Source of the DNA: Salipiger sp. H15
Lineage (GTDB): Bacteria; Pseudomonadota; Alphaproteobacteria; Rhodobacterales; Rhodobacteraceae
Reading direction: 5' to 3'
Length of the DNA stretch: 64,000 nt
Assembly: GCF_040409955.1 (NCBI RefSeq)
Contig: NZ_CP123384.1
Coordinates: 310,001-374,000, forward strand
Both the position numbers and the translations under genes were made by a program. The notes under the pieces are model-generated. The model did no database searches. It was given only the letters and a program-made list of their open reading frames with translations, and was not told the origin of the DNA. Below, one piece after another: positions 39,045 to 52,733 of the stretch (position 1 is its first letter; every line of letters starts with the position of its first letter).

Positions 39045-40229
39045 TCATTCCTCGTCCTCGAACGGGGCGGCGCTGAAGTCGAAATCGAAGTCCATGGCAG
39101 CGGACTGGACCGGGACGCCGCCCTCCTCCCCCTCGCCGGTGTCGAAATCGCCGCCGAAGCCGAAATCGCCCATGCCGGTGTCCGGCAGGTCGGGAAGGCC
39201 CGACGCCATCTCGGCAAGGCCGAACTCCGGCGGCGCCGCGGCGGCGGCCTGCGACGGGGCCGGATCCGCGGCGAAGGCGCGCGGCGCGGGCGGCGGCGCC
39301 TCGCCGGCCCCAGCGCCCCGCGGCCAGGCGAGGCGCACTGCGCGCATCCCGTTGACCTGCCCGAGCCGCCCGCCGGCCACGGGCGTGCCCGGCCCCGCGT
39401 GCAGCGTCACCCGGTCGAGCATCTCGGGCGTGAGCGGCAGCAGGTCCCCCGGGCGCAGCGCCTGCACCTTCGAGAGCGGCAGCCGCAGCGCGCCGAGCAC
39501 GGCGCGCATCTCGGCGGGCAGCAGCGCCATCTTCTGCGCGTGCGCGCCCGCCTTGCCCGCCCCGTCCGCCCCGTCCGCCCGCCGCGCGCCGGGGCGTTCG
39601 GGCAGGAACAGGCGCAGCTCGCCCCGGCGGCGCCCCAGCGCGAGGTCGAGCGCGGCGCGGAACACGCGGTAGCCGGGCGCGTCCAGCAGCAGCGCGGCGG
39701 CGCGCGCATCCTCGAGCATGGCGCCGAAGCGGAACCCCTCGACCTGCGGGCGCAGCGGGTGATCCTCGAGAAAGCGGGGAAATCGCTCGAGCGTGGCGTC
39801 GAGCAGCGGCGCGGTCATCGCCGCGTCGGTGGCGGTGAGCGGGCGCGGATCGGCGGGCATCTGGGTGACCTGCAGCATGGTCTGCACCTCGATCAACCCG
39901 GCGACCAGCTCGCGCTCGAGCGTCACGAAGCCGACCACCCCGTCCGGCCCGTCGAGCAGGATCAGCAGCGCGTCGGGCGGCAGCTGCGCGACCACCCCGT
40001 CCTGGTCGAGATGCTCCTCCTCGACCGAATGGGCGACGAGCGCGAGATCCCACAGCACGTCGGCGCTGCGCGCCAGCGCGCGGCGCAGCGCCTTGGCCGG
40101 CGACATGGCGCGCGCCTCGAAGGCGCGGCGTGCGGCGTCCGCCTTGCGGCTGAGCACGTCCTGCCCGGAGGCCCGGGCGGCGGCCTGTCCCCGCGTCTGT
40201 CTGGGTGCCTGTCCGGCGGCGTCTGGCAT
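39045..40229 (-). CDS. FliM/FliN (SpoA-domain) protein outside a flagellar cluster
   Basis: The 394-residue protein has no signal peptide. It contains a FliM-like middle region (about residues 45-200: AMSPAKALRRALARSADVLWDLAL, FVTLERELVAGLIEVQTML). A SpoA domain follows at about residues 235-310 (LRLPLSKVQALRPGDLLPLTPEMLDRVTLHAG). The tail is Asp/Gly/Phe-rich and ends DFDFDFSAAPFEDEE. SpoA domains build the C-ring of flagella and type III secretion. None of those genes is nearby. It follows the symporter-kinase gene by 101 bp on the same strand. It may couple this sensory system to the motor, or be a scattered flagellar gene. Confidence 0.75.
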   Translation of the reverse strand: MPDAAGQAPRQTRGQAAARASGQDVLSRKADAARRAFEARAMSPAKALRRALARSADVLWDLALVAHSVEEEHLDQDGVVAQLPPDALLILLDGPDGVVGFVTLERELVAGLIEVQTMLQVTQMPADPRPLTATDAAMTAPLLDATLERFPRFLEDHPLRPQVEGFRFGAMLEDARAAALLLDAPGYRVFRAALDLALGRRRGELRLFLPERPGARRADGADGAGKAGAHAQKMALLPAEMRAVLGALRLPLSKVQALRPGDLLPLTPEMLDRVTLHAGPGTPVAGGRLGQVNGMRAVRLAWPRGAGAGEAPPPAPRAFAADPAPSQAAAAAPPEFGLAEMASGLPDLPDTGMGDFGFGGDFDTGEGEEGGVPVQSAAMDFDFDFSAAPFEDEE

Positions 40230-40330
40230 CGTTCCCGTCGATCCGATCTTCCCTGGAGTTCCGGGTCAGATGCTTGCCGGGATTTGGTTACCAACGGCTT
40301 TAGCGCGCGCAGAAAGCGCGCCTTTGCGCG

Positions 40331-50580: not shown

Positions 50581-50780
50581 CGATGGCCCATGGCTCCCCG
50601 GCGGACCGCGGACCGTCGGGGGCGCGCGGGGGGCATTGGGGAGCCGCCCGCGCGCATGAACCCGCCCCGCACCGGGCCGCCTGGCCGGTGCTCCGCGGAA
50701 CCGTGAGCGCGAGTCGCACGATGCGGCCTTGCATTCGGCGCGCCGGGACGCATCCTGCAGGCAACACAGGAGGAGACACC

Positions 50781-52733
50781 ATGACGCAGACCGTCCTTCA
50801 CCCGCCGTCCGAGGATTTCGTCGCGACCGCGCATGTTGACGCGGCGCGCTACGAGGAGATGTACGCGCGCTCGATCGCCGATCCGGACGGGTTCTGGGCC
50901 GAGCAGGCGCAGCGGCTCGACTGGATGGCGCGGCCGACGCGCATCAAGGACACCAGCTTCGAGCTCGGCAAGGTCTCGATCAAGTGGTTCGAGGACGGCG
51001 TGCTGAACGTCGCCTACAACTGCATCGACCGCCACCTGCCCGCCCGCGCGGGCCAGACCGCGATCATCTTCGAGCCCGACAACCCCGAGGATCCGGCGCG
51101 GCACATCACCTATGCCGAGCTCTACGACAAGGTGAACCGCATGGCCAACGTCCTGCTTTCGCAGGGCGTCATGCGCGGCGACCGCGTCGTCATCTACCTG
51201 CCGATGATCCCCGAGGCGGCCTATGCCATGCTCGCCTGCGCGCGCATCGGCGCGATCCATTCCATCGTCTTCGCCGGCTTCTCGCCCGACGCGCTCGCCA
51301 ACCGCATCAACGACTGCGGCGCCAAGATCGTCATCACCGCCGACACCGCGCCGCGCGGCGGCCGCCGCACCGCGCTCAAGTCCAACACCGACGCAGCCCT
51401 CCTGCACTGCTCGGACAAGGTGCGCTGCCTCGTCGTCAAGCACACCGGCGACCAGACCAGCTGGATCGACGGGCGCGACGTCGACGTCAAGGCGCTGATG
51501 GAGACCGCCGGCCCCGACTGCCCGCCGCGGCCGATGAATGCCGAAGACCCCCTGTTCATCCTCTATACCTCGGGCTCGACCGGCAAGCCCAAGGGGGTTG
51601 TACATTCGAGTGGTGGATATCTGGTTTACGCCGCCCTCACCCACGAGGTGGTCTTCGACTACCACGAGGGCGACATCTACTGGTGCAGCGCCGACGTCGG
51701 CTGGGTCACCGGCCACAGCTACATCGTCTACGGCCCGCTGGCCAACGGCGCGACCACGCTGATGTTCGAGGGCGTGCCGACCTGGCCCGACGCCTCGCGC
51801 TTCTGGCAGGTCTGCGAGAAGCACAAGGTCAACCAGTTCTACACCGCCCCCACCGCGATCCGCGCGCTGATGGGCCAGGGCGACACCTTCGTCGACGGCT
51901 GCGACCTGTCCTCGCTGAAGCTGCTCGGCACCGTCGGCGAGCCGATCAACCCCGAGGCCTGGAACTGGTACAACGACAAGATCGGCAAGGGAAAATGCCC
52001 GATCGTCGACACCTGGTGGCAGACCGAGACCGGTGGCCACCTGATGACCCCGCTGCCCGGCGCCCACGCGACCAAGCCGGGCGCGGCGATGAAGCCCTTC
52101 TTCGGCATCCTGCCGGTGGTGCTCGAGCCGACCTCGGGCGTCGAGATCACCGAGCGCCCGACCGAGGGCGTGCTTGCCATCAAGGACAGCTGGCCGGGGC
52201 AGATGCGCACCGTCTGGGGCGACCACGAGCGCTTCGAGCAGACCTATTTCCAGCAGTACAAGGGCTACTACTTCTCGGGCGACGGCTGCCGCGCGGACGA
52301 GGATGGCGACTACTGGATCACCGGCCGGGTCGATGACGTGATCAACGTCTCGGGCCACCGCATGGGCACCGCCGAGGTCGAGAGCGCGCTCGTCGCCCAT
52401 GCCAAGGTCGCCGAGGCCGCCGTGGTGGGCTACCCGCACGCGGTCAAGGGCCAGGGCATCTACTGCTACGTGACGCTGATGAACGACGTCGAGCCCTCGG
52501 AGGACCTCAAGAAGGAACTCCGCGCCTGGGTCCGCACCGAGATCGGCCCGATCGCCTCGCCCGACCTCATCCAGTGGGCCCCCGGCCTGCCGAAGACCCG
52601 CTCGGGCAAGATCATGCGCCGCATCCTGCGCAAGATCGCCGAGAACGACTACGGCGCGCTCGGCGACACCTCCACCCTCGCCGACCCCTCGGTCGTCGAC
52701 GACCTCATCGAGAACCGCGCGAACAGGGACTGA
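50781..52733 (+). CDS. acs: Acetyl-CoA synthetase, AMP-forming
   Basis: The protein has 650 residues from the ATG at 50781, with AGGAGGAG upstream. It activates acetate to acetyl-CoA via acetyl-AMP. Motifs are the P-loop [12 protein letters not shown], the core WWQTETGG and the C-terminal SGKIMRR with K610, the lysine acetylated by Pat-type enzymes in other bacteria. Residues just after the P-loop are encoded by an unusual run of A/T-ending codons. It follows the Liv-type importer on the same strand and is close to CrbS-like and RamB-like regulators. A 200-bp gap leaves room for its own promoter. Confidence 0.96.

Follow-up and report, generated by a model that had tools for sequence, protein, structure and literature searches.

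Two-component systems normally reach DNA through their receiver protein. The nearest named systems to the locus described here are CrbS/CrbR (MxtR/ErdR) and RamB, and the locus fails the defining features of both. CrbS is a hybrid kinase with a receiver (REC) domain, CrbR joins REC to a LuxR-type helix-turn-helix (HTH) regulator, and in Vibrio and Pseudomonas acs is under the control of kinases of the CrbS class. The ScfR family (PrpR/MccR, PccR, RamB) combines an N-terminal HTH with a C-terminal ScfRs domain and four cysteines. PrpR has Cys363, 447, 450 and 455 as [4Fe4S] cysteines and His319 and Phe240 as residues stacking on coenzyme A (CoA). In DivL-DivK and ChpT of alphaproteobacteria, a dimerization and histidine phosphotransfer (DHp)-type bundle serves to read a receiver's state or pass it on. 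DivK, too, is a lone receiver, and DivL has Tyr at the position of the phospho-acceptor His. DivL is reported to bind DivK~P through a docking interface and to lack kinase and phosphatase activities (PMC4211667). We analyzed positions 39045..52733 of a 64,000-nucleotide stretch of Salipiger sp. H15 DNA (the window; genome of 6.1 Mb), where a minus-strand group (39045-45118), from a FliM/FliN-like gene to an ScfR-like regulator, is divergent from plus-strand genes for a Liv-type ATP-binding cassette (ABC) importer and acetyl-CoA synthetase (Acs). An earlier note on this DNA had read the interval as a module for sensing, importing and activating acetate or short-chain acyl compounds. All the genes that it named are present, at or near where it had placed them, and the first gene of the interval (39045-40229, a FliM/FliN C-terminal-domain protein), of which it made no mention, had to be added.

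Comparison with relatives supports the kinase, the lone receiver, the regulator and the importer as one conserved linked unit. Loci were collected with the binding protein of the importer, by taking the best 80 of at least 502 confirmed matches in species genomes, mostly of Rhodobacterales, and a gene was counted as present when a match covered more than 60% of the window protein. The binding protein (77-87% identical across the set) is present in all 80 loci because they were found with it. LivH and LivM were each detected in 79/80 loci, LivG and LivF each in 78/80, the regulator in 76/80 and the kinase in 72/80. The receiver was counted in 75/80, one of them spurious (in Yoonia vestfoldensis, L085, where the 28% match lies in another part of the locus). 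The gene order suggested for inspection by the earlier note is kept across relatives for sensor, receiver, regulator and importer.

A second sample comprised 244 genomes of the order, from a single family; matches below 1e-50 were accepted for the regulator and matches of 1e-150 or lower for the kinase, with the top few candidates scored in each genome. The regulator, counted by E value and not by its conserved histidine H140, was found in 237 of the 239 kinase-bearing genomes vs none of the 5 kinase-less ones, so that both stand together in 237/244; since related genomes are not independent, these counts are not probabilities. Three genomes (G019, G031 and G131) gave weak regulator matches only (1e-21 to 1e-27), of a kind that other ScfRs may also give. 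The binding protein was searched in part of this sample, namely the kinase-less genomes, G019, G131 and G212. In the five kinase-less genomes no receiver match above 43% identity and no binding protein was found. The two exceptions, G019 and G131, keep the kinase and miss the binding protein; the receiver of G131 is 64% identical, and G019 holds only a 40% match.

Among the genomes with matches listed for both, kinase and regulator starts lie at most 5 kb apart in 123/130, the remaining seven having distances of 5-20 kb (two genomes) or larger (five). Regulator, receiver and kinase remain together in Yoonia vestfoldensis, beside open reading frames (ORFs) reading as accB and accC, although the importer of that genome is found at another site. 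In G008 (locus L017) the regulator is next to the importer, and kinase and receiver form a pair on another contig. The regulator occurs twice in G009, where one copy accompanies the importer and the other the kinase pair. No such regulator stands with the importer in Hoeflea marina and Salinarimonas rosea; there the best receiver matches reach 38% and 43%, and kinase matches (38-42%) are confined to the symporter half.

The regulator (43805..45118, minus strand; nearest named protein 91% identical, from Salipiger) appears, from profile comparisons and a structure model, to hold a kinase-derived DHp/HisKA-like hairpin between its HTH and its PrpR-like C-terminus. The segment concerned comprises residues 102-201 (44516..44815). 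Aligned with the DHp of the adjacent kinase, it gave an hhalign probability of 95.3% (E 2.2e-8) over 61 ungapped columns, with H140 (codon 44699-44701) falling on the phospho-acceptor. Forty column shuffles gave at most 4.8% and reversal 0.12%. Further runs yielded 92.8% and 91.6%, and a comparison of the complete regulator with the kinase half gave 86.7%. Four canonical ScfRs, which show no such segment when aligned with the regulator, scored 1.4%, their alignment being shallower than the 60-row one. The NCBIfam CreC kinase model matched 52/60 regulator segments at E<=0.01 (best 4.2e-8). The AF2 model (pLDDT 89.8) comprises a coiled coil and a two-helix hairpin, with helices at 102-131, 133-157 and 164-201. 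With the segment alone, two-component structures took the top 7 places in Foldseek, none of them at E<=0.001 (best 0.038), and a PDB sequence search with it returned matches at chance level only. VIA was non-specific with this segment and, with the whole regulator, barely tested residues beyond 72 except for four PrpR rows.

The H-box motif of HisKA/DHp domains consists of His, an acidic residue at +1 and Ser/Thr/Asn at +4. H140 is invariant in 76/76 and 156/156 members of two overlapping sets, and in the latter the following residue is acidic in 155/156 and Ser/Thr stands at +4 in 156/156. In a more diverse set of 60 members the same three positions were kept in 60/60, 56/60 and 59/60, respectively. 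Neither the families found in the window regulator nor the 25 families shown for the 60 members include the catalytic CA/HATPase domain; the regulator is therefore not regarded as a kinase.

We consider it somewhat probable that these genes form a widespread sensing and uptake unit of Rhodobacterales, in which a signal would pass from the kinase to the lone receiver, from there to the DHp-like domain of the regulator and finally to the importer operon. Gene content, linkage, co-absence, DHp-like similarity, conservation of H140 and of the cysteines, and the motif described below are the computed parts of this model. In the proposed sequence of steps, the membrane kinase with its SLC5-type domain would autophosphorylate on H679 and hand the phosphate to D53 of the receiver. 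The latter, having no DNA-binding part, would act on the DHp-like hairpin, whether by passing phosphate on to H140 or by docking in its phosphorylated state. The regulator would bind, through its N-terminal XRE-type HTH, paired TTTACA boxes in the divergent region, and may thereby control the importer, as well as acs in the loci that have it (about half). Its PrpR-type C-terminus, in which four cysteines are putative Fe-S ligands, could supply a second input, an internal Fe-S or metabolite signal, to be combined with that of the relay. Two observations weigh against this model. First, G212 has the regulator and the kinase and no binding protein at E<=1e-100, which, like the cases of G019 and G131, counts against a tight unit. 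Second, the window regulator reaches only 14.4 bits with Pfam HisKA, vs a gathering cut-off of 26.9; the segment is called DHp-like, and no more, because of that score. The same model was matched at E<=0.1 in 4/60 members.

For the step at the hairpin, we tentatively put forward a phosphorelay ending on a His inside a DNA-binding protein, that is, from a lone receiver to a DHp domain in a PrpR-type Fe-S transcription factor, without rating it as probable. The principal alternative, a sub-variant of the same model and to our minds a possible though doubtful one, is that the hairpin serves for dimerisation and docking only, the binding of the phosphorylated receiver altering DNA binding while H140 stays unphosphorylated. 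DivL, which reads DivK~P, offers a precedent for it, and the regulator has no ATPase domain and has a lone receiver at hand; yet H140, the acidic +1 and the Ser/Thr +4 are near-fully conserved, beyond what docking needs. As compared with DivL-DivK and ChpT, the DHp-like part here lies inside a DNA-binding protein and keeps the His for which DivL has Tyr.

As to the wider meaning, a receiver without output domain stands here with a likely output in the form of a regulator carrying a kinase-type hairpin and an Fe-S-type sensor region. If the phosphorelay is true, the usual layout would be reversed, with the DNA-binding domain not on the receiver, and the circuit would be central to nutrient sensing in Rhodobacterales. 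A membrane sensor could then reach DNA by an unusual relay, through a regulator with a borrowed piece of histidine kinase. If right, bacterial signalling would gain a new type of wiring open to testing, and the conserved importer a likely regulator. Among the papers listed in searches of the open-licence literature, none described this regulator architecture. In Paracoccus, the ScfR-type gene Pden_1785 is reported beside a two-component system (PMC10370305); it may belong to the DHp-bearing type.

The kinase (40331..43018, minus strand) is made of an SLC5-type membrane domain followed by HisKA and HATPase, and the codon of its predicted phospho-acceptor H679 lies at 40982-40984. HisKA and HATPase were found in 37/37 members of the kinase alignment, in which H679, N793, N797, D825, G827, G854 and G856 are invariant. 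Pfam SSF matched just 3/37 (best 1.7e-6) and not the window copy, so that the fusion of an SLC5 symporter to a kinase is accepted by homology only. Response_reg was not matched by Pfam in any of the 37 kinases. No Pfam match to a STAC domain, which in CrbS lies between SLC5 and kinase, was obtained in them either, though the presence of a STAC model in the library was unchecked. The lone receiver (43310..43693, minus strand; Response_reg E 5.3e-25) is a protein of 127 aa with REC only, and its E9, D10, D53, T83 and K105 are invariant in 41 sequences. With CrbS/CrbR the locus thus has in common the fusion of an SLC5-type domain to a histidine kinase and a link to acs, the latter in roughly half of the informative loci; it differs in having no REC on the kinase, no LuxR-type HTH on the receiver and, apparently, a separate ScfR-like factor as its output. 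Hence the symporter-kinase fusion stands, by homology, and its assignment to the CrbS type, as well as membership in CrbS/CrbR, falls, because neither a receiver fused to the kinase nor an HTH on the receiver is present.

The second half of the regulator is a PrpR-like region (residues 203-437; 43808..44512). HTH and the ScfRs domain were detected in 60/60 members at E<=0.1, and ScfRs scores 38.7 bits in the window protein (cut-off 24). The RamB equivalog model (NCBIfam NF038139) gave 88.7 bits vs a cut-off of 700. Of the RamB/ScfR type previously proposed, the ScfR class is thus retained and RamB is not. The putative [4Fe4S] ligands C337, C412, C415 and C420 are invariant in the 60 members and occur in 156, 155, 155 and 154 of 156, respectively. 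The position of PrpR His319, located in the alignment by counting from Cys447 (Phe240 lies outside the aligned stretch), is occupied by Arg (R294) in 155/156 members, and in 58/60 of the diverse set, where one member has His. Relative to the ScfR family, with which it shares the N-terminal HTH, the C-terminal ScfRs domain and the four cysteines, the regulator differs by the DHp-like hairpin after the HTH, by an IrrE-like part that appears shortened, by this Arg and by its location with a kinase and a lone receiver. That ScfR class implies sensing of short-chain acyl-CoA is unsupported because of the Arg at the His319 position, and the acetate reading drawn from class names alone was rejected on this residue and the domain tests.

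Upstream of the importer, in the divergent intergenic region, lies a paired operator-like motif (45168..45205, plus strand), TTTACA N26 TTGACA in the window copy and TTTACA N26 TTTACA in consensus. In 76 such regions (the window and 75 loci), TTTACA pairs 32 bp apart were exact in 48, present with at most one mismatch in 70 and with at most two in 71, vs shuffle means of 0.0, 0.1 and 1.2. The pair lies about 150-210 bp ahead of the binding-protein start. With up to two mismatches it was absent within 300 bp of the importer in all three loci without adjacent regulator (L085, L026 and L060); L085 has a pair with 3 mismatches near the importer. No pair was found within 400 bp of two regulators standing apart from the importer, only half-sites like TGTAAA. 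Ahead of the second regulator copy of G009 (C25, L132), TGTAAAT is directly repeated at a spacing of about 21 bp. The canonical ScfR motif, TTTGCAAA, was ruled out as the operator, being found in 1/76 regions. A genome-wide regulon could not be derived from the pair: the Salipiger sp. H15 genome holds 18 matches vs 45 for the reversed control, which also outnumbers the pair in 5/7 related genomes. The pair is therefore unfit for finding other targets. The importer is probably the regulated target, because the other parts were not found in the five kinase-less genomes and the motif of the divergent region is conserved.

The importer is complete, as the earlier note proposed, with one binding protein, two permeases and two ATPases as in Liv/Urt-type ABC importers, all supported by Pfam and on the plus strand: a periplasmic binding protein (45342..46706; Peripla_BP_6, E 1.5e-65) whose N-terminus reads as twin-arginine-like, LivH- and LivM-type permeases (46805..47836 and 47841..49046; PF02653), a LivG-type ATPase (49030..49812; ABC_tran and BCA_ABC_TP_C) and a LivF-type ATPase (49825..50580; ABC_tran). 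An ordinary branched-chain amino-acid or urea importer would agree with the similarity to Liv and Urt components at family level; it seems quite improbable to us since the four components scanned with NCBIfam (all except the LivG-type ATPase) score under the curated Urt and Liv cut-offs, which also sets them apart from the described importers. The LivH-type permease gave 101 bits for LivH and 187.6 for UrtB (cut-off 250.3), both under cut-off; the binding protein gave 53 for UrtA (cut-off 492.75) and the LivF-type ATPase 207.6 for UrtE (cut-off 285.8), UrtE and LivF being its best matches.

Prediction of the cargo from LivJ ligand residues was abandoned because the LivJ alignment was too weak (probability 30%). 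PDB sequence relatives of the binding protein bear generic names, and no clear indication of the substrate came from eight neighbour proteins scanned in a few loci. A conceivable cargo, if a doubtful one, is lactate or a similar small 2-hydroxy acid, on the ground that a Phaeobacter inhibens transporter is reportedly annotated as D-lactate-specific from mutant fitness data. Its locus tags were unmatched in the literature searched and wider literature searches did not point to lactate; no lactate enzyme was recognised among the eight neighbours, and the sequence does not give the ligand. In the Salinarimonas rosea locus (L060), a pyruvate:ferredoxin oxidoreductase (POR)-type protein with DUF6537 (5935-9618) lies ahead of the importer and malate synthase G (16763-18919) stands two genes downstream of it, which may hint at 2-oxo or C2 acids. 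Elsewhere, the livF-accB gap of L043 (15402-17536) holds, on the opposite strand, a small PAS-LuxR regulator and an AMP-binding ligase, and an ORF of L032 (15450-15986) reads like the former.

The gene acs (50781..52733, plus strand; TIGR02188 995 bits, cut-off 725) is a facultative member of the locus. Its start was taken as 50781, the ORF list placing it at 50583. It directly follows the importer in 37/73 informative loci (30 whole, 7 cut by the contig end) and is absent in 36, the remaining 7/80 being uninformative; acs as a fixed part of the module is thereby ruled out, and this portion of the proposed gene order is not upheld. The same counts bear on the view of an acetate or short-chain acid module in CrbS/CrbR and RamB style, with a cargo yielding acetate for Acs, which we regard as unlikely. 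Its arguments are the 37 loci with Acs directly after the importer, the role of this kinase class in Vibrio and Pseudomonas and the ScfRs domain of the regulator; yet acs is missing from the other 36 and present twice in this genome, the defining CrbS and CrbR domains are absent, the RamB cut-off is missed and the CoA-stacking His is lost. The second acs copy (G000:C1:2332759-2334690) shares 99.1% identity with positions 50805-52728 of the window across 1925 nt. The remainder of the retrieved locus shows no similarity to the window, which points to a recent duplication or gene conversion.

Two further minus-strand genes accompany the kinase. A small ORF (43011..43313), membrane-like by reading and without family match, overlaps both the start of the kinase gene and the stop of the receiver gene; it was matched in 55/80 loci and may be a conserved sensor subunit. 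The FliM/FliN C-terminal (SpoA) domain protein at 39045..40229 (PF01052, E 1.2e-9) is a conserved kinase neighbour (63/80 loci), yet only 28-58% identical. Finally, two tRNA-Glu (ttc) genes that score equally in Rfam were observed 200 bp apart on the minus strand of the window, at 10745-10819 and 10945-11019.

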